DNA from: Tessaracoccus caeni
GTDB lineage: Bacteria > Actinomycetota > Actinomycetes > Propionibacteriales > Propionibacteriaceae
NCBI RefSeq assembly: GCF_029211185.1
Contig: NZ_JARGDO010000001.1
Coordinates: 345,414-409,413, forward strand
Length of the DNA stretch: 64,000 nt
Direction of reading: 5' to 3'
Part shown: one piece after another, positions 34,534 to 55,462 of the stretch
Layout: every line of letters begins with the position of its first letter
Position numbering within the stretch: the first letter of the stretch is position 1
Made by a program: the position numbers and the translations under genes
Notes under the pieces: generated by a model
Database searches by the model: none
Told to the model about the DNA's origin: nothing
What the model saw: only the letters and a program-made list of their open reading frames with translations

Positions 34534-36006
34534 ATGGCCAGTGAGCATCGTCAGGGATGGTTCGGACTACCGTGGTTCGGCGTGAAGCCCCAGGAGGAAG
34601 TGGTCTCCTGCGTGCTGTCCGGCGGCGGCTCGCGTGCCAGCTTCCAGATCGGCGCCCTGGAGTACCTGTACCGGCACGATCCTTTGTTCACCCCGACGGT
34701 GTTCGTGGGCACCTCGGCCGGCTCCATCCTGGCGGCGGGCCTGTCTCAGTACGCGAAGCGCGCCGACCAGCTCGCATGGGTGCATCGCATCGACGACGTG
34801 TGGTCGGCCATGACGTCGTCGGACGACATGTTCACCCCGCGCCGGTGGTTCGCGAAACTCCAGACCGACGGCCCGTCGTGGCTCGACTTGGTGACGCCCA
34901 AGCCTCCGGAGCCACCCAAAGCACCGGCCAAGCCGCTGCTGCCCTTCCTCCGGCCCGAGACGCCGCTCCCCCTCTCCCCCGATACGCCTACCGATCCATG
35001 GGAGTGGGCTCTCTCTCCCGACAAGGAGCTGCGGGCCGAGTGGTCGCTGGAGACGCTGAGTTCGCTGATGGGCGGGCTCCGACAGCTGCCGCGCATCGGC
35101 ACCGACCTCAACGCCATCTGGCACGGCGCCGAGCGTTCGCGTTCCCTCTACCAGCCCGGGCCCGTGCTCAAGCGCCTGCTGGAGCCCGAGACCTTCGATC
35201 CAGAAAAGGTGGCGTCCTCCGGCATGACGCTGCGCCTGGCGATGGTGGCGCTGGAGTCGGGCGAGCTTAGGTTCATGACGGAGACCGGCGAGCTGGTCGA
35301 TCGCGATAACCGTCCGATCGGCACCAAAGCGGATCTCTTGACCACCGGCGTGCTGGCCTCCTGCGCCATTCCCGCCGTGTTCCGCCCTGTTCCGATCGGC
35401 GACGAGCACTACGTCGACGGCGGCGCGCGCGAGAACCTGCCGGCCGAGCTGGCCATCGGCCATCTGGGTGCATCGCGCAACTACGTCGTCTCCTCGCAGA
35501 CCATCGGTCTGGAGCGCGGCCGGAGCATGGCCACCGCCGACCTGTTCAGCATCGTGATGCGCTCCACGGAGATCCTGATCGATGAGGCCGGCCGCGACGA
35601 GCTGGCCTACGCCTACTCCGCCGGCGCCGTCGTGATCCACCCTGAGATCTCCGTGCACTCGTCGATGACGGTGCACCCCGGGCTGATCCAGATCAACCGC
35701 GACTACGGCTGGATGCGAGCCGCCGAACGGGTTCTCGGCCTGGGTGCGGCTGAGCGCGAGCGTCACGCGGCGATCACCAGGCATCGCGTCGAGTGCGTCC
35801 AGTGGGAGGAGCGCTACGCGATCGACCCCACCCCTGAGGCCCTCGCCGAGGTGGGCCGCCGCAAACGTGACCTAAGACAGCTGGTGACCGGCTCCACCAC
35901 CGGAGCCCTGCCCCCGCATGCCGACTCCTGGTGGACCGGCTTCGAGGCCCACCCCGACCCCATCGACGCTCAGCCGTTCTGGATCCCCACTCGCCACGCC
36001 CTTTGA
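34534..36006 (+). CDS. Patatin-like phospholipase
   Basis: Putative lipid acyl hydrolase with a Ser-Asp dyad, 490 residues. The oxyanion motif is SGGGSRASFQIGAL near 29-42, the nucleophile Ser lies in GTSAGS near 67-72 and the catalytic Asp in DGGAREN near 295. A Pro-rich insertion sits near 120-150 (KPPEPPKAPAKPLLP). No signal peptide or membrane segment is visible, so it probably acts inside the cell. It is divergent from the CDF gene. The last codons (CTT TGA) again form part of a repeat-like CCCTTTGAGGG. Confidence 0.85.
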   Translation: MASEHRQGWFGLPWFGVKPQEEVVSCVLSGGGSRASFQIGALEYLYRHDPLFTPTVFVGTSAGSILAAGLSQYAKRADQLAWVHRIDDVWSAMTSSDDMFTPRRWFAKLQTDGPSWLDLVTPKPPEPPKAPAKPLLPFLRPETPLPLSPDTPTDPWEWALSPDKELRAEWSLETLSSLMGGLRQLPRIGTDLNAIWHGAERSRSLYQPGPVLKRLLEPETFDPEKVASSGMTLRLAMVALESGELRFMTETGELVDRDNRPIGTKADLLTTGVLASCAIPAVFRPVPIGDEHYVDGGARENLPAELAIGHLGASRNYVVSSQTIGLERGRSMATADLFSIVMRSTEILIDEAGRDELAYAYSAGAVVIHPEISVHSSMTVHPGLIQINRDYGWMRAAERVLGLGAAERERHAAITRHRVECVQWEERYAIDPTPEALAEVGRRKRDLRQLVTGSTTGALPPHADSWWTGFEAHPDPIDAQPFWIPTRHAL

Positions 36007-36064: not shown

Positions 36065-36137
36065 CCCCGATGGTCGAAGAGCGTGACCTGCAACCTAACC
36101 TAGGGGCATGCGCGTTTCACCTACCAGGGAGGAAACG

Positions 36138-36626
36138 GTGCATAGCGGACCCACGGGTTTCGACAACTTCGTCCGGCAACGCGGGCGTGCGCTGTGGCGT
36201 GCCGCTTTTCTACTGACCGGAGATTCGCACAAGGCGGAGGATCTCGTCCAGACGGTGCTCGCCAAGACCTATCCGCACTACCGCGGCGACGATGGGGCGT
36301 TCGAGGGCTACGTCCGCACCGCGTTGTATCGCACCTATGTGTCCTGGTGGCGGCGGCGTTGGAAAGGCGAGGTTCCCAGCGAGGAGCTGCCGGAATCGCC
36401 CGAGATGGGCGAAGCGTCGCGCTCGGCTCGCCTCGACCTGCTGCGCGCGATGGCCGAGCTGCCCAAGGTCCAGCGCGCGGTGCTGGTGCTGCGCTACTTC
36501 GAGGACTGCACCGTCGCCGAGGTGGCGGAGCGCTTGGGGATGTCCGAGGGCACCGTGAAATCCCATTCCTTCCGGGCGCGCGAGGCGCTGCGGCAATCGG
36601 TTCACTTGAAGGAGGAAGCCCGATGA
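36138..36626 (+). CDS. SigE-family ECF sigma factor (copy 1)
   Basis: Alternative sigma factor, 162 residues from GTG 36138, which has GGGAGGA 5 bases upstream; an upstream ATG at 36108 is in frame but less well placed. Region 2 reads AAFLLTGDSHKAEDLVQTVLAKTY, then YRTYVSWWRRRW, the hallmark of the actinobacterial SigE-type family. Region 4 is LPKVQRAVLVLRYFEDCT with the HTH AERLGMSEGTVKSHSFRAREAL. Its stop overlaps the next start (ATGA), and that gene encodes a membrane protein that is the obvious candidate anti-sigma factor. A second copy lies at 40286. Confidence 0.9.
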   Translation: MHSGPTGFDNFVRQRGRALWRAAFLLTGDSHKAEDLVQTVLAKTYPHYRGDDGAFEGYVRTALYRTYVSWWRRRWKGEVPSEELPESPEMGEASRSARLDLLRAMAELPKVQRAVLVLRYFEDCTVAEVAERLGMSEGTVKSHSFRAREALRQSVHLKEEAR

Positions 36627-37795
36627 ACGACGAAGAGCTGAGGCACGCGCTGGAGGCCCTTCCTCCGCAGGATCCCGAGATCGACGGCTGGGCGAAACGC
36701 GCCCGCCGCACCAGCCAGACCCGACGGGGCGTGGCCGCCGCCGCGGTGCTGATCGTAGGCCTGGGACTGCCTGGCCTATACCTGGCCAACGCCTGGCAGT
36801 CGGGGCACCGTCCGGTGGCTCCTGACGTGCTGGCCACGCCGTCCCACATCCCGCAACTCACCCCGACGTCGCCCGGCGAGGATGCCCCCGGGGTCATCGA
36901 GAGCACTCCGCCTCCTAGCACCCAGATCGTCCTGCCGCCCGTCGACGAGATGACTGGCGTCGTCGCGATCCGTTCCGTGGAGGGCACCGACGAAGCCGAA
37001 CTCTGTGCCGTGGACATCGAGTACCCAGACGGCGGAGACCCGCCCGTCTGCGAGGGCCCCACCCTGAAGGGCGACTTCTCCTGGGACGACCTTCACCAGG
37101 CGGGCTACACCGTCTCCCACGACTCCGGCGTTAGCTGGACCGAAAAGGACATCCGCGTCTACGGCTACTACGACCCCATGGATGGCCCGCTCGGCTCGTT
37201 CACGCTAGCCGGCCCAGTTGCCGTAGAGGCCACCTCGCCCAGCAGCAAGAGCCACGAGCAGCCGACCAGCACGTATTACCACCCCCTGTCTCTCTGCGGG
37301 GATCCGGTTCGCACGAAAACAGGCCATGAAGAGGACTGGCAGGTGGGCACCTGGGCCTTCACCGACGCGATCGAGGTGGCTGAGAAGTCCAGTGGGTACG
37401 TCGAATGGTGGCTCGGTGCCAACGACTACTTGAACGTCGAGGTCGAGCCCGGCACCGACGTCCGCGCCCTTGAGAACGAGCTGGGCGCCGCCTGGGGTGG
37501 GCCGATCTGCGTCGGCATCAGCACCCGACTCGGCGCGGAGGCCGAAGAAGCGGTCTCACGGCTCCTTGAGACCTCCATGCCGGCCGCACACGTTGCTGGA
37601 GTCGGAACGCTCAACGAGCCGGGAGAGGCGCGCGTCGCCGTCACCATCTGGGGATACGACGCCGACCTGGCCGGGTGGTTTCGTGCCTTGCACAGCCCTG
37701 AGCTCGAGAAGCTCGACAGCTTCACCCTCACCGTCGACTTCGTCCTGACCCCCGTGGGCACATCCCTCGATCCCATCAGAATCGTCACCCGCTGA
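36623..37795 (+). CDS. Single-pass membrane protein, putative sigma regulator (copy 1)
   Basis: Function not recognised. The 390 residues have a short cytoplasmic N-terminus (about 1-35, with WAKRARRTSQTRR), one membrane helix near 37-57 and an external domain of about 330 residues after a Pro/Thr-rich linker. Cys residues in AELCAVDIEYPDG, PPVCEGP, SLCGDP and GPICVG could form disulfides. It overlaps the sigma gene by 4 bp, as expected for an anti-sigma factor, but no zinc-binding anti-sigma motif is seen in the short cytoplasmic part. Copy 2 at 40789 has the same layout with low similarity outside the membrane region. Confidence 0.75.
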   Translation: MNDEELRHALEALPPQDPEIDGWAKRARRTSQTRRGVAAAAVLIVGLGLPGLYLANAWQSGHRPVAPDVLATPSHIPQLTPTSPGEDAPGVIESTPPPSTQIVLPPVDEMTGVVAIRSVEGTDEAELCAVDIEYPDGGDPPVCEGPTLKGDFSWDDLHQAGYTVSHDSGVSWTEKDIRVYGYYDPMDGPLGSFTLAGPVAVEATSPSSKSHEQPTSTYYHPLSLCGDPVRTKTGHEEDWQVGTWAFTDAIEVAEKSSGYVEWWLGANDYLNVEVEPGTDVRALENELGAAWGGPICVGISTRLGAEAEEAVSRLLETSMPAAHVAGVGTLNEPGEARVAVTIWGYDADLAGWFRALHSPELEKLDSFTLTVDFVLTPVGTSLDPIRIVTR

Positions 37796-37869
37796 TCGGA
37801 CCGCAACGGCTTCTGACCTCCAGAGCGTGTTGACCTATGAAACAAGACTCCCTGCTACTAGGAGACCTC

Positions 37870-38961
37870 ATGCATCTTCCTCGCCTCGCCGCCGCTGCGG
37901 TTCTCCTCATCGGGCTCGTGGGCTGCTCGTCCCCAGACCCGGCGGCGCCGGACACGCCGCCAGCAACGACGGGATCGGTCTCGTCGGCCGCTCCCTCAGC
38001 ATCGCCGGATTCGGATCCCAGCGCGGAGCAGCAGCCCAGCATGCCGTTCGACCCCTACCTCGCCGTCATTGACTCGTCCAGGCAGCAAACCCATCAGGAG
38101 ATAGCCGACGAGACCAATCTCATGGAGGAGACCATCGCGAAGTGCATGCGCGAGCAAGGCTTCGAGTACCTCCCCAAGGTCGTCACCGTCGAGGACGTGG
38201 AAGCCAGCGAAGCCGAGCGCGACGCGGCCGAGGCGGGCACCGATGCCTACGGTCGTCCCCCTGGATACGGAACGGTGGACTACGCCAAGAAGTACGGATA
38301 TGGGAGTCCTGATCTCCCCGATGACGAGGACACGAGGGAGGAGCCCCGCATCAATCCGATCCTGGAGAAGGAGTGGGCCTATCTCGACTCTCTCACGCAG
38401 TCCGAACGCGAGGCCTGGGAAACAGCGCTGTCGGGAGATATGAGCAACCCCCTCTACGACGAGGACGGCAACGCCTACTGGGACATGACCACTCAAGGAT
38501 GCTACGGGGAGGGATACCAAGCCATCGACGACGACGAGGTCCACGTCTACGACGATCCGGCCTTCACCGATCTCCTCGAGGCGCTCTCCTTCGCGGAGCC
38601 CGCCCCCGACAACGACAAGGACTTTGCGGCGCTGGAGAAGGAGTGGTCGAGTTGCATGTCCGACGAAGGGTTCTCCTTCCCGCGGCGCCAGGACGCAGCG
38701 ATCACTGTCGAGAACGAGCAAGACGCGCTCTGGCCGCGCGGCGCCGATGGCAAACCCGATCCGGCACAGGAGCCCACCGAAGAGGAACTCGAGCGGTTCT
38801 TCGTCGAGTACGAATTGCCCGTCGCGATCGCCGACGCCACCTGCGCGGAGGGCATCGACTACGACGACCGGCTTCGCGACATCACCGTCGCCTTCCAGGA
38901 GCGCTTCATCAAGGAACACCAGGACCAGCTCGACGACCTGGTCCTCCGATACGGCGAGTGA
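37870..38961 (+). CDS. Lipoprotein with paired CM...GF motifs (paralogue 1)
   Basis: Surface lipoprotein of unknown function, 363 residues. ATG 37870 follows AGGAG and gives MHLPRLAAAAVLLIGLVGC with lipobox Cys19. The mature part carries KCMREQGFEYLP, DYAKKYGYGS, a central Cys (TQGCYGEGY), EKEWSSCMSDEGFSFPR and DATCAEGIDYDDR. These four Cys residues recur in the neighbour at 39026, which suggests two disulfide-closed modules. The protein is very acidic. It sits between two sigma-factor pairs. Confidence 0.8.
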   Translation: MHLPRLAAAAVLLIGLVGCSSPDPAAPDTPPATTGSVSSAAPSASPDSDPSAEQQPSMPFDPYLAVIDSSRQQTHQEIADETNLMEETIAKCMREQGFEYLPKVVTVEDVEASEAERDAAEAGTDAYGRPPGYGTVDYAKKYGYGSPDLPDDEDTREEPRINPILEKEWAYLDSLTQSEREAWETALSGDMSNPLYDEDGNAYWDMTTQGCYGEGYQAIDDDEVHVYDDPAFTDLLEALSFAEPAPDNDKDFAALEKEWSSCMSDEGFSFPRRQDAAITVENEQDALWPRGADGKPDPAQEPTEEELERFFVEYELPVAIADATCAEGIDYDDRLRDITVAFQERFIKEHQDQLDDLVLRYGE

Positions 38962-39013
38962 GCGGATTCTGAGTCCAGCCCCAGGGCTGAGGTGGGCTCC
39001 GGTGCCGCGTGGC

Positions 39014-39019
39014 TAGGTT
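39014..39019 (+). promoter_or_regulatory. -10 element of a leaderless-type promoter
   Basis: TAGGTT, 6 bases before ATG 39026, and no ribosome site between. A TCCGGT one base out of register replaces the GTCGGW element seen at other genes. Confidence 0.4.
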
Positions 39020-39025
39020 CGTGCC

Positions 39026-40129
39026 ATGAACACGCCTCATTGTCTCCGTCTCGGCATCGCGGCGGCGGCCGTACTGAGCATCGGGCTGGCTGGTTGCTCC
39101 AGCGCGCCCCAGGAAAAGACGGACTCTCCGGAGCCATCGACCCCGCAGGCGACAGCGACAGCGACCGAGACGGCGCCCGAGTCCGTCGATGAGCTGTTCA
39201 CCATGCCGCTCGACCCGTACCGTGCGGTCACCGGCAGCCTGGCCAGTCTCGACGCCGAGAAGATCGCCGCCGACCTCACCCGAGAGAACGAGCTGCGCGC
39301 GCAGTGCATGCGCGAGCAGGGCTTCGAGTACTTCTACACCCCAGCCACCGCCGAAGAGGTGTTGTGGGAACTGGGCCGTTCCAGGCAAGCGGCACCGACG
39401 ACATGGGACGACTACGGCACGGTGACCTTCGCCAAAAAGTACGGCTATGGCTCCGTCCACTACCCCGACGTCGAGGAACAATCCGTCCCTGATGTCGAAG
39501 TCCCGCAAGGCCCGGACCCCGAGACCGAGTACCTCGAATCGCTGAGCGAGTCAGACCGTCAGGCCTGGGATGCGGCCCTGTACGGCGACCCCGAGAGCCG
39601 GCAGCCGAGCGAAAACGGCGAGACGCCCGACCCTGATGCCTGGAAGTCGGAGGGCTGCCGGGGCTGGGCCGAGCACGAAGCCACTGGCGGCAAGATGAAG
39701 GCCATTGACGACCCTGAGTTCGCCGAGTTGATCGACGCCATCTTCAACGCCACAGCCACCCCTGACAACGACGAAGACCTCGCGACGCTGGAGAAGGAAT
39801 GGTCGCAGTGCATGGCGGCCGATGGCTTCTCCTTCACCTCTCGCCAGGACGCCGCCTTCACCATCGAGGAAGAGGCCGACGCCTTGTGGCCGCGAGACGC
39901 AGACGGCAAGCCCGACGACGACCGGGAACCCAGCGAGCAGGAGCTGGAACGGTTCTTCACCGAACGGGAGCTTCCCGTCGCGGTGGCCGACGCCACCTGC
40001 GCCGAGGGTATGGACTACAAGAAGCGCCACTCCGTGATCCTGGTGGCCTTCGAGCAGCGCTTCATCGACGAACACAAGAAACAACTCGACGCCCTGATGC
40101 TCACCTACGGCACTGAGAGCACCAGCTGA
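39026..40129 (+). CDS. Lipoprotein with paired CM...GF motifs (paralogue 2)
   Basis: Paralogue of the lipoprotein at 37870, 367 residues. The signal peptide ends in SIGLAGC with Cys24. The same landmarks occur in the same order: QCMREQGFEYFY, FAKKYGYGSVHYP, EGCRGWAEHE, EKEWSQCMAADGFSF, DALWPRDADGKPDDD and DATCAEGMDYKKR. Function unknown; no enzyme motif is visible. It looks like a tandem duplicate that has diverged and gained its own promoter. Confidence 0.8.
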   Translation: MNTPHCLRLGIAAAAVLSIGLAGCSSAPQEKTDSPEPSTPQATATATETAPESVDELFTMPLDPYRAVTGSLASLDAEKIAADLTRENELRAQCMREQGFEYFYTPATAEEVLWELGRSRQAAPTTWDDYGTVTFAKKYGYGSVHYPDVEEQSVPDVEVPQGPDPETEYLESLSESDRQAWDAALYGDPESRQPSENGETPDPDAWKSEGCRGWAEHEATGGKMKAIDDPEFAELIDAIFNATATPDNDEDLATLEKEWSQCMAADGFSFTSRQDAAFTIEEEADALWPRDADGKPDDDREPSEQELERFFTERELPVAVADATCAEGMDYKKRHSVILVAFEQRFIDEHKKQLDALMLTYGTESTS

Positions 40130-40285
40130 GCCCGGTGCCGTGGATAACGCTGGGAATATGGCGCGGCCTGTACCTATTTCCCACGCCTCGCCGGATAGCC
40201 AGCGCTATCCACCAGCATTGGACCAGCGCCCCCCAGGTGCAAGGAAACTGGGGGCTCAGAGCGTTTATAGGGCATGGAGGTGGCG

Positions 40286-40792
40286 ATGCGCGAGACGGCG
40301 GCCCGGTTCGACCGGTTCGTCGCGTCGCGCGGGGGCGACCTGTGGGTTGCCGCCTGGCTGCTGACGGGTGACGCGCAGCACGCGGAAGACCTGGTCCAGA
40401 CGGCGCTGCTCAAGTGCTACGGACGGTTCTCATCCTTCGACGCGGAGTCGGCTTTTGAGGCCTACCTGCGCACGACGATGTACCGCACCTACGTGTCGTG
40501 GTGGCGACGGCGCAGTTGGCGCTCAGAGGTGCCGGCCGAGGTGCGCCCCGACGCCCATGGCGCCACGCCGGCCGAAGATGCCGATCTGCGCGAGGATCTG
40601 CGCCGGCACCTGACCGCGCTGCCACGAGCGCAACGAGCCGTGCTGGTGCTGCGTTACGTCGAGGACAAGACCGCCGTCGAGACCGCTCGCATCCTCGGCA
40701 TGCCCGAGAACACCGTCGCCTCCCACACCCGGCGCGCGCTGGCCGCCCTGCGCGCCGCCGATGGGATCGAGGAGCTGAGGAGCGCGCCATGA
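40286..40792 (+). CDS. SigE-family ECF sigma factor (copy 2)
   Basis: Paralogue of the sigma factor at 36138, 168 residues. I chose ATG 40286, which has GGAGG at 40276-40280, over the in-frame ATG 40274. Region 2 reads AAWLLTGDAQHAEDLVQTALLKCY and YRTYVSWWRRRSW. Region 4 has LPRAQRAVLVLRYVEDKT and ILGMPENTVASHTRRALAAL. Upstream, GGAAAC at 40243 followed by CGTTTA near 40262 loosely resembles an ECF promoter, though the spacing of 13 is short. It overlaps the following membrane protein gene by 4 bp. Confidence 0.9.
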   Translation: MRETAARFDRFVASRGGDLWVAAWLLTGDAQHAEDLVQTALLKCYGRFSSFDAESAFEAYLRTTMYRTYVSWWRRRSWRSEVPAEVRPDAHGATPAEDADLREDLRRHLTALPRAQRAVLVLRYVEDKTAVETARILGMPENTVASHTRRALAALRAADGIEELRSAP

Positions 40793-41976
40793 ACAAGCCA
40801 CTGACCGACGACCTGCTGGGCTTGGTCCCCCAACGCCCTGACCCCTCTAGCTGGGGTCCGCGCGTGCGCCGCGCGAAGACCCGGCGTCGTGCCCTGGGAG
40901 GCATAGCTATGACCGTGGCCGTCCTCGGCACCGCGGTCGCCCTGTCGAACACGCTCGGCACCCACGGCCCACTCATCGCCACACCCGGACCATCCCAGAC
41001 GAGCTTGGCGCCTGCTTCGACCGAGCAACCGACACCATCTCCCTCAGCCACGACCGCCGTCCCGCCAAACCATAAGCTCACCTCCGAAGAGCTGCTCGCC
41101 CAGCCGAACGGGCTGATACCCGAGGCCTGCGCCGCACTCACCGACTCGCCAGAGGCCTTCTCACCGCCACCCGCCGACGGGCTACCTACGGGTGCCGACC
41201 GAGTCTGGCTCTGCGGGGATCCGGCCAGCGTCACCGGCGACGCCAGTTGGATAGGTCCGCAGGAAGCACTGACGACCGACCCCGACCGAGTTGCGCGCGT
41301 CTACAACACCCTCCCCGGCACGGACGCCCACCTCGGCTGCGACGGCGATGCTGGGCTTGGATATCGAGTCGTGGTCGACTACCCCGACCAGCGGATCGCC
41401 TTCGACGGAACCGTGGCTAACTGCCAGACCGTGGGCGACCGTCGAGGAGGCGAGGAGTTCATGAATGACCTCACCGCCTTGTGGGACGCCCAGCGGACAG
41501 CCGCTCCCCCGACATTCACCTCAACCGAAGGCATCTGCAACTTTGCGGATATCGCGCGTCTCAACTTCGTCACGATGGACATCAATTTCCTCGGCTGGGG
41601 AAACCGGAGCTTCTTCCATCGGGTACCCAGGGAGACGCTGACCAGAGGCGTGCTCTGCGGCGTTGACTTCGACGACACGATCCCCTCGGTCCTCGGCGTG
41701 AGCGAGATGTGGCTGCCCGACCAAGTATTAACGGAACTCACAACAGCAGAACTCGCCGCCCCGCCGCAAGAACGCACTGACGAGCCCATTCTTGAGGCCT
41801 ATCTCGTGCTGTTGAACGAGGCCGGGGATCCCGTCACCTACCGCATCAGCCGCGACGGCGGCGTTCTCATCAACGCCAACAAACCTTGGGATTGGGTCGG
41901 AACCTGGTACCCCTCATCCGATGTCGCAGATCAATGGAGCGCGACGCTGGAGGCGGCAGGAATCGTTCCCGAGTAG
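40789..41976 (+). CDS. Single-pass membrane protein, putative sigma regulator (copy 2)
   Basis: Counterpart of the protein at 36623, 395 residues. It has a cytoplasmic N-terminus of about 35 residues (SWGPRVRRAKTRRR), one membrane helix near 36-56, a Ser/Thr/Pro linker at about 60-95 and an external domain with several Cys (PEACAAL, VWLCGDP, HLGCDGD, VANCQT, EGICNF, GVLCGVD). WLCGDP here and SLCGDP in copy 1 may be a shared core. No known family was recognised. The overlap with the sigma gene suggests it controls that sigma factor in response to an outside signal. Confidence 0.72.
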   Translation: MNKPLTDDLLGLVPQRPDPSSWGPRVRRAKTRRRALGGIAMTVAVLGTAVALSNTLGTHGPLIATPGPSQTSLAPASTEQPTPSPSATTAVPPNHKLTSEELLAQPNGLIPEACAALTDSPEAFSPPPADGLPTGADRVWLCGDPASVTGDASWIGPQEALTTDPDRVARVYNTLPGTDAHLGCDGDAGLGYRVVVDYPDQRIAFDGTVANCQTVGDRRGGEEFMNDLTALWDAQRTAAPPTFTSTEGICNFADIARLNFVTMDINFLGWGNRSFFHRVPRETLTRGVLCGVDFDDTIPSVLGVSEMWLPDQVLTELTTAELAAPPQERTDEPILEAYLVLLNEAGDPVTYRISRDGGVLINANKPWDWVGTWYPSSDVADQWSATLEAAGIVPE

Positions 41977-49897: not shown

Positions 49898-51625
49898 CTA
49901 TCTCGCGCGCCATGCCGCCCACAGCTGAGCGTAGGTGCCGCCGTCGGCGAGCAGTTCGTCGTGCGTGCCGGCCTCGACGATGCGCCCGGCCTCCATGACG
50001 ACGATCCGGTCGCAGCCGGCGGCCTGCGAGAGCCGGTGCGCGATCACGAGGCCCGTGCGTCCGGCGAGCACCGCCTCGGACGCCCGGTCGAGCTGCCCGG
50101 CGTGCGCGGAACCCGCCTCTGCGGTGGCTTCGTCGAGGATCGCGAGATCGGGGTCGGCGAGGAGCAGACGAGCGAGTGCCACCTGCTGCGCCTGCGCGTC
50201 GGTGAGGGTGTGGCCCCCGAGCCCGACGACGGTGTCCAGCCCGTCGGGGACGACATCGAGGATCGCCGCGGCACCGGTGGCCTCCATCGCCGCACGGATC
50301 TCACCATCGGACGCCTCGGGTGCGGCGAGGGTGAGGTTGTCGCGGAGGGTGCCCGCGAACACGTGCACCTCTTGAGTGATCACCACGGTGCGGCCGGGCC
50401 GGGCCACGGTCCCCGAGTCAGGCGGATGGATGCCGGCGAGCACGGCGGCCAGCGTGGTCTTACCTGCTCCTGAGGCACCGACCACCGCGACGTGCTCGCC
50501 GGGCGCGATGTCGAGCGTGACGCCGTCGAGCACCCGGGGACCATCGCCATAGCGAAAACCGATGTCGTGGAGGCGAACGGCCACGCCCGGGGCGGCAGGC
50601 ATCGCCGGTTCTTCCGCGGTATCCGGGATGGTGACCACGCCGATCATCCGGTTCAGCGACGCGAGGGCGGACTGCAGCGTGTCTATGACGAACATCAGCT
50701 GGTTGACCGGCCCGAGGAGGCGCAGCACGAGCAGCATCGCGGTGGTCGCACCGCCGACGGTCGACGCGCCGCGATCGATGAGGACGAAGCCCACCACCAG
50801 CACCGAGACCAGACTCAGGCACTCGCCCACGTTCAGGCGCGCGTTGAGCATGCTCTGCACGGTGCGCGCCCTCAGCGACCGCACGGCGACGGCCCACGAC
50901 GCGGTCATCACGGAGCGGTGCCGCTGCGCTCCCAGCCCGAAACCGAGCACGGTGGCAAAGCCGCGCTGGGACTCGAGGATCTGCTGCGCCCGAGCGCTCA
51001 TCGCTTCGCGCTCCGCTCGATACGCCTGCGGTCCGACGCGCAGGTACCACCGCATCGCGAGCGCGTAGACGGGCAGCACGACGGCGAACGCGGACGCGTA
51101 CGGCCATTCCAAAGCCGCGAGCCCGCCGAGTGAGACGACGATGGTGAAGACGGTGACGCCGAGCACCGGGATCACCGTGGGCGCCGCGTCGGCGACGGCG
51201 GTGACGTCGTCGCTGGATCGGGAGATCAGATCCCCGGTGCCGGCCCGCTCGACGAGGTGCTGCGGAAGCACCATGGCGCGCCTGACGAGTTGCTCCCGCA
51301 GCGTAGCGAGCATGGCGTGGTAGGCGCGAGTGGCGAGCACGATCGTCGCTGCGGTGCCGAGCGCGCCGAGCAGCGCCGAGGCCAGCATCACCGCCGTGAC
51401 CGTCAGCACGGTGCCCATATCGGCGGCCCCCTCCCGCACCCGATCGACGAGATACCCCACGGCCACCGGCGGGAGGAGATCGACCGTGGTGCTGAGGACG
51501 CCCAGCGCCCCGACGGCGGCGAGCCTGGCCCGGTATCCGCGGGTGAGCCGCCAGACCTCGACCGCCGTCTCCCGCGCCCCGGCGACGGGCAGCGCGTGAT
51601 CCGTCGTCCCCGATGCCCCGCTCAT
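49898..51625 (-). CDS. ABC transporter half-subunit with intact Walker motifs
   Basis: Fused membrane/ATPase half-transporter, 575 residues: six helices in about 30-310, nucleotide domain from about 340. Walker A is GASGAGKTT, Walker B LAILDEATAEA and the switch His is in VIAHRLS. The signature reads LTDAQAQQ instead of LSGGQ. Its partner at 51622 has the reverse pattern, so the two form one heterodimer. In this iron cluster the closest functional model is the mycobacterial IrtAB pair, an exporter-fold siderophore importer, but export is possible. It overlaps the partner by 4 bp. Confidence 0.88.
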   Translation of the reverse strand: MSGASGTTDHALPVAGARETAVEVWRLTRGYRARLAAVGALGVLSTTVDLLPPVAVGYLVDRVREGAADMGTVLTVTAVMLASALLGALGTAATIVLATRAYHAMLATLREQLVRRAMVLPQHLVERAGTGDLISRSSDDVTAVADAAPTVIPVLGVTVFTIVVSLGGLAALEWPYASAFAVVLPVYALAMRWYLRVGPQAYRAEREAMSARAQQILESQRGFATVLGFGLGAQRHRSVMTASWAVAVRSLRARTVQSMLNARLNVGECLSLVSVLVVGFVLIDRGASTVGGATTAMLLVLRLLGPVNQLMFVIDTLQSALASLNRMIGVVTIPDTAEEPAMPAAPGVAVRLHDIGFRYGDGPRVLDGVTLDIAPGEHVAVVGASGAGKTTLAAVLAGIHPPDSGTVARPGRTVVITQEVHVFAGTLRDNLTLAAPEASDGEIRAAMEATGAAAILDVVPDGLDTVVGLGGHTLTDAQAQQVALARLLLADPDLAILDEATAEAGSAHAGQLDRASEAVLAGRTGLVIAHRLSQAAGCDRIVVMEAGRIVEAGTHDELLADGGTYAQLWAAWRAR

Positions 51626-53364
51626 TGTTTCGCCCTTCCGGACGCGGACGCGGGCACGTCATCGAGGACGTCGACGACGCGGTCACAGACGGCGAGCAGC
51701 GCTGGCGATCCGGTGATCAGCACCGTCGAGCGACCCGTGCGGACGCCGCGCAACCGCGCCGCGATCACCTGCTCGGTGACGGAGTCCACCGCCGTGGTCG
51801 GATCGTGCAGCACCAGCACGGGCGCGTCGGTCGCCAGCGCCCGAGCCAGCGCGACCCGCTGACGCTGGCCGCCGGAGAGACGGTTGCCGTTCTCGCCCAC
51901 CGGAAGGTCCAGATCGGCCGCGAAATCGTCGCAGGCCGCCGCTCTCGCTGCGTCCTCCAACGCCCCGAAGGCACCGGCGGACATGGCCAGGTTGTCGCGG
52001 ATCGTGCCGGTGAACAGCGTCGCCCGGTGTGGCGCAACGGTGACCCGAGAACGGTAGTCGGCCACGCTCAGCTCCCTCGGCAGAGTCCCGTCGAGCAGCA
52101 CCTCGCCCTCGTCGGCGGACCATGGATCCAGCAGGACGGTGGCGACGCGCCCGGCGGTCAGGTCGTCGGCGCGCAACCCGACGACCTCCCCCGGAGCCAC
52201 CCGAATCCTCGCACCGGAGACGGCGACATCCAGCGTTGGCATCAACGTGTCCCCGGGCCGCCAGACGTCGTCCGTTCCGGGGGCGACGACGCCATGGACA
52301 CGCAGGGCATCGAGGATGCGCGCGGACGAGGCCCGGGCACCGGCGAAGTTGGGGATCGACGCGCGCGCGATCGCCTCGACCTGCGGCAGCAGCGCTTGGG
52401 TCAGGCCGATGGCGGCGATCAGTTCGCCGATGGTCAGCCACCCGCCCACGGCGAGCCAGCCCGCCAGCCCCATCACCGTCGCCACGAAGGCGCCGCTGAC
52501 GACGCCCGAGCCCACCAGGAACCGGCCGAGAAGGCCGGCGTTGCGGATGGCCCCGACGAGCGTCTCCTGACTCGCATCCCGGTAGCGCCTGGTGGTCTCA
52601 GCCTCAGCCTGCACTCCCTTGACCACGCGGTAGCCGGTCACCAGATCCGTCGCCCGTCCGACGGTGCTGGCGAGCAGGCGCTGGTACTCGCGCGTGTCGC
52701 GGGAGAACCGCTCGCTGAGGATGCCCATCAGCCACACCGCGACGGGCGCTCCCACCAATGCGACGAGCCCGAGGAGCCAGTGGGTCGCCAGCAGCGAGGC
52801 GGCGATGAACCCGATGGCCACGATCCTCGACACCGGCAGCACCACCAGGATTCCAGCGTTGGCCAGACGCAGGACGTCGTTGGTCATCAGGGAGACGATG
52901 GTGCCGTCCGGCGCCTGAGCGCTCCGGCCCATCGGATGCAAGACGCGGGTCGAGAGGGTGCTGCGCAGCCGGTGCTGCAGCACCTGCACCGCGTAGGCCG
53001 TGAGTCGATTCGTGAACTTCGCCGCCACCGTCAGGACGATGTACAGGGCCACCAGCGCACCGGTCCATAACGCCAGCTGCCCCGCGTCGCCGGTGGCCAG
53101 GGCACGGTCGATCGCGAGCCCCATCACGACAGGGACGGCGGACTCTCCCACCTGCCACACGATCGCCAGCAGCATCGCGGGGACGGTGACCCGAGGCAGC
53201 GAGAAGATCACGCGAGCCAAGAACCGGCCCGGCGTCGTCCCCTCACCGGCCTCGAAAGGTCGGGCCTCGAGCGGCTCAGCGGGGCCGTCCAAGAACACCG
53301 GCAGCCAGCGCGTCAAAGGCCCCCGCCCCAGCCCGGTTGGGTCGGCGTCACGGCGACGGGTCAC
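51622..53364 (-). CDS. ABC transporter half-subunit with degenerate ATP site
   Basis: Second half-transporter, 580 residues from GTG 53364, which overlaps the esterase stop by 4 bp. The membrane domain lies at about 50-340. In the nucleotide domain the Walker A loop is gone (VGLRADDLTAGR in its place), Walker B reads VLVLHDPTTAVDS without the catalytic Glu, and the H-loop reads LITGSPALL without His. The signature LSGGQRQR is intact. It should therefore complement the Walker motifs of the neighbour to give one working ATP site. An N-terminal extension of about 45 residues precedes the first helix. Confidence 0.88.
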   Translation of the reverse strand: MTRRRDADPTGLGRGPLTRWLPVFLDGPAEPLEARPFEAGEGTTPGRFLARVIFSLPRVTVPAMLLAIVWQVGESAVPVVMGLAIDRALATGDAGQLALWTGALVALYIVLTVAAKFTNRLTAYAVQVLQHRLRSTLSTRVLHPMGRSAQAPDGTIVSLMTNDVLRLANAGILVVLPVSRIVAIGFIAASLLATHWLLGLVALVGAPVAVWLMGILSERFSRDTREYQRLLASTVGRATDLVTGYRVVKGVQAEAETTRRYRDASQETLVGAIRNAGLLGRFLVGSGVVSGAFVATVMGLAGWLAVGGWLTIGELIAAIGLTQALLPQVEAIARASIPNFAGARASSARILDALRVHGVVAPGTDDVWRPGDTLMPTLDVAVSGARIRVAPGEVVGLRADDLTAGRVATVLLDPWSADEGEVLLDGTLPRELSVADYRSRVTVAPHRATLFTGTIRDNLAMSAGAFGALEDAARAAACDDFAADLDLPVGENGNRLSGGQRQRVALARALATDAPVLVLHDPTTAVDSVTEQVIAARLRGVRTGRSTVLITGSPALLAVCDRVVDVLDDVPASASGRAKQ

Positions 53365-54602
53365 GCCGCGCCTCCGGATGGCCTCGCGACGTCCGCGGGG
53401 GCGGGGAAACACCAGCGCAGTGCGTCGCCGAAGAGCCCTCGCCACCAGGCGTAGTCGTGGCCGCCGGCGAACTCCCGGTAGTAGGTGTCGTAGCCCTTGT
53501 CGACGAGCACCTGGTCCAGCCACCGGCTGTGCGTGAGAGAACCCTCCAACTCGCCCACGTCGTGGAAGACGCGGACGGGCGCGCGATCAGCGGCCTTGTA
53601 GTCGGCCATCAGCGTCGGCATGGGAACGCGACGCCGCAGCTCGCCTGCGCCGGTTCCCCACCTGAGGTCAGGATGGTAGCCGCACGACGGCGACTGAAGG
53701 ATGGCGTTGCCGAACGCCTCCGGGTGGTGCAGCGCCGTCCATCCGGCGCACAGACCGCCGAAGCTCTCGCCGGCCAGCGCCACGTCGGCGGGGTTCCGCG
53801 ACAGCGGATACCGGCTGCGGAGCCACGGCAGCAGCTCGTCGACCAGCATCCGAGAGAAATCGGCGTTGCACAGCAACTCCTTGTATCGCTCCGACCCGAG
53901 CTGGTCGACGAGCACCACCGCGCAGGGCCGGATCGCGCCAGCCTCGACGAGCGCGTCGCGAACGCTCGGCGCGCTATGCTCCGGGGTCCCGTCCAGCTGG
54001 ATCACGAACGGCAGCGGGCCGTCATCAGAAGATGCGCCCGGCGGCATCGACACCCAGATCCGGCGTTCGTTTCCCAGGATCTCGCTCGCCAGCACGGCGG
54101 GCTTCGGCATCGTGGCAGGCCGCGCTTCGGCACGATCGAGCCAGGGCAACGGCTCCGCGTCGGGCAGCGTCAGCACCGACGAGCCAGAGAACCTCGGCTC
54201 GGAGTATTCGGAGAACGGCGGCGGCGGATTGAACGGGTCGGGAGCCTGTTCGTCCTCGCCAGTCGGTCCCTGTCGCGTGAACACGTAGCCGAAGCGCAGA
54301 TCAGAACGCATCCGCAGGGTGAGGACGCGAAACGGTGTCCCCGCCACCGCCGCGAACTCCTCCTCGATCGTGTTGCGGCCGATGATCGGGCCGATCACCA
54401 GCGAGAGGCGGGTCGTCGTGTCGGACCCGGGCTCATCGACGAACGTCACCTCCACCTCGCCATCGGCGACCCGCTCGATGAGCGGTACGCCCGCCTCCGC
54501 GAGATGGTGGCGGAACCGCTCCGGATCCCATTCTCCGAATGACAGCTTCTGGACGGCGGCGCTGGCCGTGTCCACCGTCGTCGCCGCGTCGCGCGGACTC
54601 AC
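53361..54602 (-). CDS. Fes-like siderophore esterase
   Basis: Hydrolyses ester-linked ferric siderophores in the cytoplasm to release iron. The 413 residues comprise an N-terminal Fes-type domain (about 1-160, with SEYSEPRFSGSS) and an alpha/beta hydrolase domain. The nucleophile Ser is in LAGESFGGLCAG near 277 and the His in GGHDYAWWRGLF near 383. It overlaps both neighbours by 4 bp within the uptake operon. The enzyme implies that the imported siderophore is of the catecholate tri-ester type, which is inference. Confidence 0.87.
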   Translation of the reverse strand: MSPRDAATTVDTASAAVQKLSFGEWDPERFRHHLAEAGVPLIERVADGEVEVTFVDEPGSDTTTRLSLVIGPIIGRNTIEEEFAAVAGTPFRVLTLRMRSDLRFGYVFTRQGPTGEDEQAPDPFNPPPPFSEYSEPRFSGSSVLTLPDAEPLPWLDRAEARPATMPKPAVLASEILGNERRIWVSMPPGASSDDGPLPFVIQLDGTPEHSAPSVRDALVEAGAIRPCAVVLVDQLGSERYKELLCNADFSRMLVDELLPWLRSRYPLSRNPADVALAGESFGGLCAGWTALHHPEAFGNAILQSPSCGYHPDLRWGTGAGELRRRVPMPTLMADYKAADRAPVRVFHDVGELEGSLTHSRWLDQVLVDKGYDTYYREFAGGHDYAWWRGLFGDALRWCFPAPADVARPSGGAA

Positions 54603-55462
54603 GCCTGCTCGTCCTGCTCGACGGGCGAGTGCACGCTATGGCCTGCGGATCTCGGCCGGGTGCGGTCGCGACCGAGCGGCACCACCTGCGGGCTGCCAAC
54701 CACCGGATCGGGAACCACCACGCAGCGCAGGCCGAAGACCTCCTCCACCAGTTCCGCGGTCACGATCTCCTCCGGAGGCCCCTCGGCGACGATCGCGCCG
54801 TCCTTCATCGCGATCAGATGCGTGCCAAAACGGGCCGCCTGGTTCAGATCGTGCAACACCGCGACCAAGGTGTGGCCCACCTGGTTGAGGTCGGTGAACA
54901 GCTCCAGCAGGTCGATCTGGTGCGTGATGTCCAGGAAGGTGGTGGGCTCATCGAGCAGCATGATGTCGGTGTGCTGCGCGAGCGCCATGGCCACCCACAC
55001 TCGTTGCCGTTGACCGCCCGACAACTCGTCCACCAGGCGACCGGAGAGCTCGGTGATCGTGGCCTGTTCCATCGCCCGAGCCACCGCCTCCTCGTCGTCT
55101 TCGGTCCACTGCCGGAACATCCCCTGGTACGGATAGCGGCCACGGGCCACCAGATCAGCGACGGTGATGCCGTCCGGAGCGATCGACGTCTGCGGCAGCA
55201 GTCCGATCCGGCGGGCCACTTCTTTGGTCTTGTAGGACTGGATGTCCGCCCCGTCCAGGACCACGTGCCCGACGCTCGGTTTCAGCAACCGCGACAGTCC
55301 GCGCAGCAGCGTCGACTTGCCACACGCATTCGGCCCGACGATCACCGTGAACGACTTGTCCGGAATGGACACCGACAGGTTCTGGGAGATCACTCGCTTG
55401 TCGTAGCCGATGGTCGCCGCGTCCACCTGGAGGCGTGCGGCGTCGGTCTGGGGTGCATTCAT
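54599..55462 (-). CDS. Iron-siderophore ABC transporter ATPase (FepC/FecE type)
   Basis: ATPase of the siderophore importer, 287 residues from ATG 55462 (MNAPQTDAARLQ). It has Walker A GPNACGKST, Q-loop LLPQTS, signature LSGGQRQR, Walker B MLLDEPTTFLD and switch His in LHDLNQA. The typical RGRYPYQGMF of FecE-like ATPases is present. The longer open frame upstream is a permease shadow. It overlaps the permease gene and the esterase gene by 4 bp each. Confidence 0.94.
   Translation of the reverse strand: MNAPQTDAARLQVDAATIGYDKRVISQNLSVSIPDKSFTVIVGPNACGKSTLLRGLSRLLKPSVGHVVLDGADIQSYKTKEVARRIGLLPQTSIAPDGITVADLVARGRYPYQGMFRQWTEDDEEAVARAMEQATITELSGRLVDELSGGQRQRVWVAMALAQHTDIMLLDEPTTFLDITHQIDLLELFTDLNQVGHTLVAVLHDLNQAARFGTHLIAMKDGAIVAEGPPEEIVTAELVEEVFGLRCVVVPDPVVGSPQVVPLGRDRTRPRSAGHSVHSPVEQDEQA

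Follow-up and report, generated by a model that had tools for sequence, protein, structure and literature searches.

The question raised by this locus is what two sigma factor genes, each followed by a membrane protein gene, have to do with the two lipoprotein genes that lie between them. The locus is part of a 64,000-nucleotide stretch of the Tessaracoccus caeni genome (contig NZ_JARGDO010000001.1, positions 345,414 to 409,413), hereafter called the window. A first-pass annotation, made from the letters alone, described six genes as a duplicated cassette of sigma factor, membrane protein and lipoprotein and proposed a two-branch sensing system. Our analysis revealed that each sigma gene and its membrane gene form a conserved pair and that the lipoproteins belong to an unannotated family, named LIP here, whose members often head exporter operons and are linked to sigma genes more often than chance would give. 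The six open reading frames (ORFs) were found at the positions, in the order and on the strand first described:

sigma1, 36138-36626, plus strand: SigE-family extracytoplasmic function (ECF) sigma factor with a GTG start; TIGR02983 and Pfam sigma70 regions 2 and 4
mem1, 36623-37795, plus strand: short basic cytoplasmic tail, one helix and a MEM1-type outer domain; putative anti-sigma factor/sensor
lip1, 37870-38961, plus strand: lipoprotein with lipobox LVGC; member, by family alignments, of the four-cysteine all-helical family LIP
lip2, 39026-40129, plus strand: LIP-family lipoprotein, 48% identical to lip1
sigma2, 40274 or 40286 to 40792, plus strand: SigE-family ECF sigma factor; TIGR02983
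mem2, 40789-41976, plus strand: tail and helix like those of mem1, with a MEM2-type outer domain; putative anti-sigma factor/sensor

For sigma1, the GTG at 36138 was preferred over the in-frame ATG at 36108 because the latter sits inside the predicted promoter. Similarly, 40286 is the likelier start of sigma2 because it is preceded by a Shine-Dalgarno-like GGAGG.

Sigma factors and their membrane partners

Both sigma factors showed the ECF layout (PF04542 with PF08281/PF04545 over the cut-off, in a protein of about 170 amino acids) and exceeded the cut-off of 141.55 bits for TIGR02983, the SigE-family RNA polymerase sigma factor model, with 167.2 bits for sigma1 and 151.8 bits for sigma2; they are members of that family, and no difference from it was found. 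In contrast, mem1, mem2, lip1 and lip2 matched no curated family over the cut-off in Pfam or NCBIfam. The initial description of the parts as being of unknown family therefore holds for the membrane proteins and lipoproteins and fails for the sigma factors, and the membrane proteins indeed carry no known anti-sigma domain by these models. TIGR02983 also matched 40 of 40 related sigma factors scanned (those of the pair loci plus one on C5) at E <= 1e-38; the bit cut-off was read for the window pair only, and the others were judged by E-value. The source genome (4.16 Mb, 82 contigs) contained 28 sigma70 region-2 matches.

The 4-bp overlap claimed for both sigma/membrane pairs was evident at the two junctions, which have ATGA in common. 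Of the 44 related membrane genes in 25 loci of the source genome and genus, 36 were located directly 3' of a sigma gene, and the spacing was exactly -4 bp in 28 of these 36; among the remaining eight, one was at a contig edge, five followed another membrane gene and two followed an unlabelled gene. Because of these two proportions, the coupling is not a chance arrangement in this group, and the results support the sigma and membrane genes as a conserved, translationally coupled pair. Additional pairs of a sigma factor and a one-helix protein were found in the source genome on C33 (two), C17 and C66, with sigma factors 56-67% identical to sigma1. Of 293 genomes of the order, own genome included, 17 contained a match to mem1 and 38 a match to mem2; the genus accounts for 15 and 24 of these, respectively. 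Many of these matches spanned only the tail or another single part.

A single helix was predicted in each of mem1 and mem2, as first reported, and in all 34 of the 36 pairs in which a helix was found it began at residue 35-43. The short, basic cytoplasmic tail preceding it, which in mem1 and mem2 comprises about residues 1-36, was conserved across the pairs. The outer domains differ between the mem1 and mem2 types; as read from the sequence, they contain four cysteines in mem1 and six in mem2, in agreement with the cysteine-containing outer domains described initially. Upon comparison of the MEM1 and MEM2 types by hhalign, with profiles built from three sequences each, a value of 96.6% was obtained, and the alignment covered the tail, helix and linker only (match columns 2-115). 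A conserved short tail combined with exchangeable outer domains is the pattern that would be expected of short-tail anti-sigma factors with variable sensors, which we take as a likeness and not as membership. Three features of class II (CnrY-like) anti-sigma factors were present, namely a sigma-adjacent gene, one helix and a tail of <50 residues, a combination that is suggestive but insufficient for assignment. The single-sequence structure model of mem2 was unusable (mean predicted local distance difference test score, pLDDT, 36.6).

In a tree of 44 sigma factors, sigma1 fell in a group with four MEM1-partnered sigma factors (support 0.968), and the group of sigma2 contained eleven MEM2-partnered sigma factors (support 0.737); two further MEM1-labelled pairs were placed elsewhere. 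Tandem duplication of the whole cassette was considered and is contradicted by this tree, in which sigma1 and sigma2 are not sisters. The label of a duplicated cassette thus fits lip1 and lip2 only; it does not fit the sigma factors, which belong to different clades, or the membrane proteins, whose outer domains differ.

The genus also contains arrays of two or three sigma/membrane pairs (L155-L161, L171), in some of which one sigma gene is followed by two membrane genes in a row. In two genomes of the same genus (L173:138-6072 and L174:5735-11653), a sigma/MEM2 pair and an exporter operon are divergently oriented; the operon of L173 contains HlyD and MacB families, and that of L174 was assigned via near-identical sequence. 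These operons carry a Met/Gly/Ser-rich lipoprotein that is LIP-like over the signal peptide only.

The LIP family

The two lipoproteins were described as paralogues, and the 48% identity of the tandem lip1 and lip2 bears this out. Of the LIP genes detected in the genome, these two were closest to each other, the next values being 37% for lip1 and 41% for lip2, whereas the best match of lip1 outside its own genome showed 31% identity (147 family genomes). With lip1 as the query, LIP matches were found in 22 of these 147 genomes; with a profile, they were found in 92 of 391 order genomes and, at E <= 0.001, in 144 of 394 class genomes, the own genome being included in all three counts. Many of the near-threshold matches were weak, and some spanned only the signal-peptide end. 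A search for related loci with lip1 alone confirmed no relative.

Four cysteines (C94, C211, C262 and C325) were invariant in 71 aligned sequences, and the lipobox cysteine was present in at least 90% of them. The AlphaFold model of lip2 was all-helical, with a mean pLDDT of 83.8. Both window lipoproteins show the lipobox, the four invariant cysteines and the all-helical fold by which we define LIP, the fold being taken from the lip2 model. No LIP member scanned exceeded a cut-off in Pfam or NCBIfam. Foldseek returned 0 PDB matches at E <= 0.001, which does not make the fold new; the best VIA-align Z-score was 4.4, and the best sequence match (E 0.081) lay over the signal-peptide region, so that none of the PDB comparisons was convincing. 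On these alignments and the lip2 model, LIP is an unannotated lipoprotein family with four invariant cysteines and a predicted all-helical fold, which often heads a MacAB-like exporter operon, as described below.

Two candidate homologues of LIP were rejected. The histidine-kinase sensor domains encoded beside LIP operons have similar cysteine stretches by eye and reached a probability of 0.8% in hhalign; the mem1 and mem2 types reached 0.1% and 0.2%.

Genes adjoining LIP

Gene calls and labels at the LIP loci were obtained with our own script and small hidden Markov models (HMMs), by which some starts and low-GC genes were miscalled; the membrane fusion protein (MFP) label is of this kind, and the exporter families were verified on few proteins only. 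After removal of L218 and L069 as duplicates, 144 clusters were counted. An MFP label was present at most two genes downstream of LIP in 96 of these clusters, usually followed by an ATP-binding cassette (ABC) ATPase and a MacB-type permease, in comparison with 2 MFP labels in 592 distant genes. A response regulator was found at most two genes upstream in 26 clusters, and a sigma gene at most three genes upstream on the same strand in 12. A repeat of the count gave identical numbers. Without overlapping or near-identical loci, the counts were 94, 24 and 12 of 141, respectively. In a class-wide sample of 62 clusters, the MFP label occurred in 19 (17 of 59 without overlapping or near-identical loci) and the response regulator in 12.

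Against the 12 sigma-linked clusters observed, 0.4-0.9 were expected from a thin local background, in which one of 505 distant genes was a sigma gene, and 1.5-3 from an alternative estimate of our own (28 sigmas in about 3,900 genes). Nine of the 12 belong to the order of the window, and the other three to Nonomuraea and Streptomyces (L273, L290, L291). The source genome itself contains a second set of sigma factor, one-helix protein and LIP (C11:177.8-180.1 kb), in which the sigma factor scored 121.7 bits, below the TIGR02983 cut-off. The six-gene order was absent from every other LIP locus opened, so that its conservation in relatives is not supported; it is the shorter order of sigma factor, one-helix protein and LIP that recurred.

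An exporter operon of the source genome on C81 (L047) follows three LIP genes and encodes an MFP-like protein, an ATPase (PF00005) and a MacB/FtsX permease (PF12704, PF02687). The sole match of this MFP-like protein was to PF01471, a peptidoglycan-binding domain.

In many large-genome relatives, a divergent response regulator and histidine kinase were observed beside the LIP-MFP-ATPase-permease genes (L177-L184, L212, L213, L276, L369-L379). Eleven kinase sensors extracted from beside LIP operons were about 300 amino acids long and contained several cysteines, and they were unlike LIP by profile. Additionally, a small protein of 95-190 amino acids with one N-terminal hydrophobic segment adjoins 41 of 205 LIP clusters (L187:5529-7607, L198:7779-8195 and several of L326-L385); 24 of these proteins fall in one similarity group and five in another, and a third group of four is peptidoglycan-binding-like by eye. 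It is possible that this protein is a ligand or partner of LIP.

Fusion of the LIP domain to sigma-linked membrane proteins

In L057, L058 and L190, the protein directly after the sigma factor was composed of a cytoplasmic tail, one helix and an outer LIP domain. L057 and L058 share one genus and were counted as one lineage, which with L190 gives two fusion lineages. The sigma factor of L190 is a full TIGR02983 member (174.9 bits), and that of L058 scored 77.0 bits, below the cut-off. Within L190 (6984-9791), the fused LIP domain was compared with the lipoprotein encoded first in the divergent exporter operon, which revealed 85% identity over 255 amino acids and, in DNA, 89% identity over 750 bp. 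This sharing looks as if it arose by recent duplication or gene conversion. The fusion protein was matched in one of eight genomes of the L190 family. Such close identity between fused domain and exporter lipoprotein suggests that the sensor and the exporter of L190 recognise the same ligand.

Promoter-like sites

Three sites resembling ECF promoters were located upstream of the window genes:

36087..36119, plus strand: predicted ECF promoter of sigma1-mem1 (CAACC at 36091, 16-bp spacer, GCGT at 36112)
37800..37832, plus strand: candidate ECF promoter of lip1-lip2 (CAACG-N16-GCGT), in a 74-bp gap
40236..40268, plus strand: candidate ECF promoter of sigma2-mem2 (CAAGG-N16-GCGT)

The pair CAACC-N16-GCGT was present in 15 of 40 sigma upstream regions, whereas any such pair reached at most 5 in 10 shuffles; this seed was picked after enumeration, and the shuffles swapped non-overlapping dinucleotides. 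A broad matrix was built from sites in 23 of 38 non-window upstream regions, some of them near-identical, after removal of a 15-bp-spaced site (L158_5) and of all sites with scores of about 7 or lower. Among the 127,936 window positions, this 23-site matrix ranked the sigma1 site 1st, the sigma2 site 11th and the lip1 site 25th; the gap-wise P values were 0.0008, 0.010 and 0.008, respectively (uncorrected, five gaps tested). No site was found with this matrix in the lip1-lip2 gap (P 0.31) or in the gap after mem2 (P 0.63). Because the lip1-lip2 gap is devoid of a promoter site, lip2 is probably co-transcribed with lip1.

When 217 genes from loci of the source genome were ranked with the 23-site matrix, the six best were five sigma genes and the MFP-like gene of the C81 exporter operon. 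Because four of these five sigma genes had contributed matrix sites, their high scores are built in; only sigma1 and the MFP-like gene count as independent cases. The P value of 0.77 for lip1 in this test came from a miscalled start and has no bearing on the real lip1 gap. Over the whole genome, TGCAACC-N16-GCGT had three matches, located before sigma1, before the C81 MFP-like gene (predicted promoter at C81:117911) and inside an ORF, as compared with one for the reversed control. The pattern TGNCAACC-N16-GCGT had two genome matches, both before sigma/MEM2 pairs that had supplied matrix sites, as compared with 0 for the control. The broad pattern GCAAS-N17-GCGTNT, which was shaped on the window sites, was unspecific, with 11 genome matches versus eight for its reversed control; four of the 11 were before sigma1, lip1, sigma2 and the C66 sigma gene, and seven were inside ORFs. 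Moreover, CAACC-N16-GCGT with one mismatch occurred 15 times in the window, against an expectation of 21.7, which is no enrichment.

As a result of the 12 upstream sigma genes in 144 clusters, the two fusion lineages and the promoter-like sites before sigma1, sigma2 and lip1, the data support a link between LIP lipoproteins and sigma factors that exceeds chance.

A tentative model of the locus

The reading that we place first, with a confidence that stays a little below even, is an ECF-controlled envelope response. In this model, mem1 and mem2 would be membrane-anchored short-tail anti-sigma factors that hold sigma1 and sigma2 by means of their basic cytoplasmic tails and, through outer domains of different types, sense different inputs. 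Once activated, each sigma factor would transcribe the sigma-mem operon that encodes it; lip1-lip2 would be transcribed by sigma1, sigma2 or both, as the computed sites may indicate. The same sigma factors, one or both, might also transcribe the C81 operon, in which the MFP-like protein, ATPase and MacB permease come after three LIP lipoproteins. LIP lipoproteins would act as surface receptors for a compound handled by such exporters, and lip1 and lip2 would be sigma-induced receptors or scavengers beside both sensors, feeding back on the signal. The receptor and feedback roles are proposed because of the exporter neighbourhoods and because the same domain is fused to sigma-linked membrane proteins. 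With respect to the two-branch sensing system first proposed, the conserved coupled pair and the above-chance link of lipoprotein and sigma factor were upheld, while the simple duplicated cassette and the conserved six-gene order were not.

Several observations weigh against this model. A sigma gene at most three genes upstream of LIP was found in 0 of the 62 class-level clusters, and 20 same-genus stretches with sigma/membrane pairs contained no LIP gene; because of these two results, sigma linkage is a minority context for LIP. The pairs of the source genome on C33, C17 and C66 likewise had no LIP gene next to them. No MFP or MacB-permease label was found among the 54 predicted window genes, so by these labels the window contains no MacAB-like operon. 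The membrane proteins matched no curated anti-sigma model, the sole sub-threshold match being a twin-arginine translocation (TAT) signal in mem2, and neither the mem1 nor the mem2 type showed similarity to LIP by profile. With regard to the promoter-like sites, a stricter matrix of 14 exact non-window sites gave the sigma1 site 2nd place among the window positions and did not single out the lip1 or sigma2 sites, in both of which the CC conserved elsewhere in the -35 element is broken. The LIP genes of L044, L047 and L048 had no good sites (P 0.06-0.96). Furthermore, promoters of the AAC/CGT type are general for ECF sigma factors, with similar sequences reported for the SigE targets of Streptomyces coelicolor (PMC6767563), so another ECF sigma factor could use the window sites. 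The model loses some weight, and a chance neighbourhood gains some, because the other pairs of the genus occur without LIP and because the stricter matrix missed lip1 and sigma2.

A bolder reading, which is possible if doubtful, treats LIP as a receptor domain that is new, widespread in actinobacteria and interchangeable between exporter lipoprotein and sigma-linked sensor. The window would then contain the separate-gene version, in which two sigma branches converge on one receptor pair. If this were true, pump and switch would recognise the same ligand via a common LIP domain.

The alternative that survives best, although we regard it as decidedly doubtful, assigns lip1 and lip2 a role as co-sensors: ligand-loaded lipoproteins would touch mem1 and mem2 and trigger sigma release, by analogy with CnrX, a separate membrane-anchored sensor that acts on CnrY. 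The position of lip1 and lip2 between the two pairs is consistent with this role, as is the direct fusion of LIP to sigma-linked one-helix proteins in L057, L058 and L190, and CseA, discussed below, offers a lipoprotein precedent (PMC6767563). However, large outer domains are already present in mem1 and mem2, the same-genus stretches and the C33, C17 and C66 pairs point to pairs that usually work without LIP, and the promoter-like site makes lip1 resemble a regulon member.

That same site 5' of lip1 would also be expected if the lipoproteins were output only, that is, protective or immunity proteins, for example against a small secreted protein, with no part in sensing. The small protein adjoining 41 of 205 LIP clusters, with 24 of the 41 in one similarity group, fits such a role, but the two lineages in which the LIP domain is fused to a sigma-linked membrane protein point to a receptor, and we consider the output-only explanation unlikely. 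Finally, a chance neighbourhood of unrelated genes, namely two sigma/membrane pairs and the lipoprotein pair, would explain why the six-gene order occurs in no other locus opened, why sigma1 and sigma2 are not sisters and why other genus pairs lack a nearby LIP gene, but this is very improbable in view of the second sigma, one-helix and LIP set in the source genome, the excess of clusters with an upstream sigma gene over either expectation and the promoter-like sites in three of four gaps.

Comparison with known systems

CnrY has one membrane helix. The resemblance of the window pairs to CnrH-CnrY, an ECF sigma factor with a small anti-sigma factor, was drawn from described features and not from sequence; in contrast to CnrY, the window membrane proteins carry large outer domains. 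In Cupriavidus metallidurans, the class II anti-sigma factor CnrY is reported to wrap two helices round CnrH (PMC7406223).

In Bacillus subtilis, SigW is reported to control yknWXYZ, which encodes a four-component pump of MacAB-like type that acts against the SDP toxin (PMC3498285, PMC4887032). As described in these reports, the likeness lies in an ECF sigma factor placed over an operon of accessory protein, MFP, ATPase and MacB-like permease. The differences are that YknW is a Yip1-family protein, whereas LIP is a lipoprotein, and that the window is without an MFP or permease label.

CseA of S. coelicolor is described as a lipoprotein that dampens the SigE system, and its loss raises sigE promoter activity (PMC6767563). 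An ECF sigma factor with a surface lipoprotein is thus found in both sigE-cseABC and the window, a likeness of description and not of sequence, although CseA is reported to act beside a two-component system (PMC6767563). No kinase or response regulator was found among the six window proteins with Pfam and NCBIfam, so the two-component part of sigE-cseABC has no counterpart here. By analogy, SigW-yknWXYZ and CseA may serve as precedents for parts of the model, not for the whole.

A full-text literature search for the name TIGR02983 returned no paper. In the titles and abstract openings retrieved by searches on ECF sigma factors and their classification, lipoproteins, MacB, YknX, CseA and Propionibacteriaceae, neither LIP nor this gene arrangement was described. 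For TIGR02983 sigma factors, the locus offers a concrete hypothesis, which gives them short-tail anti-sigma partners and a predicted promoter and counts an unannotated lipoprotein family and a MacAB-like exporter among their targets, and the LIP fusions make the receptor role of LIP directly testable.

Other genes in the window

Three predicted genes with ABC-ATPase labels from our own HMM were located at 49898-55462 on the minus strand, at least 8 kb downstream of the cassette. Immediately 5' of the cassette, on the same strand, is a gene for a patatin-like phospholipase (PF01734) at 34534-36006.

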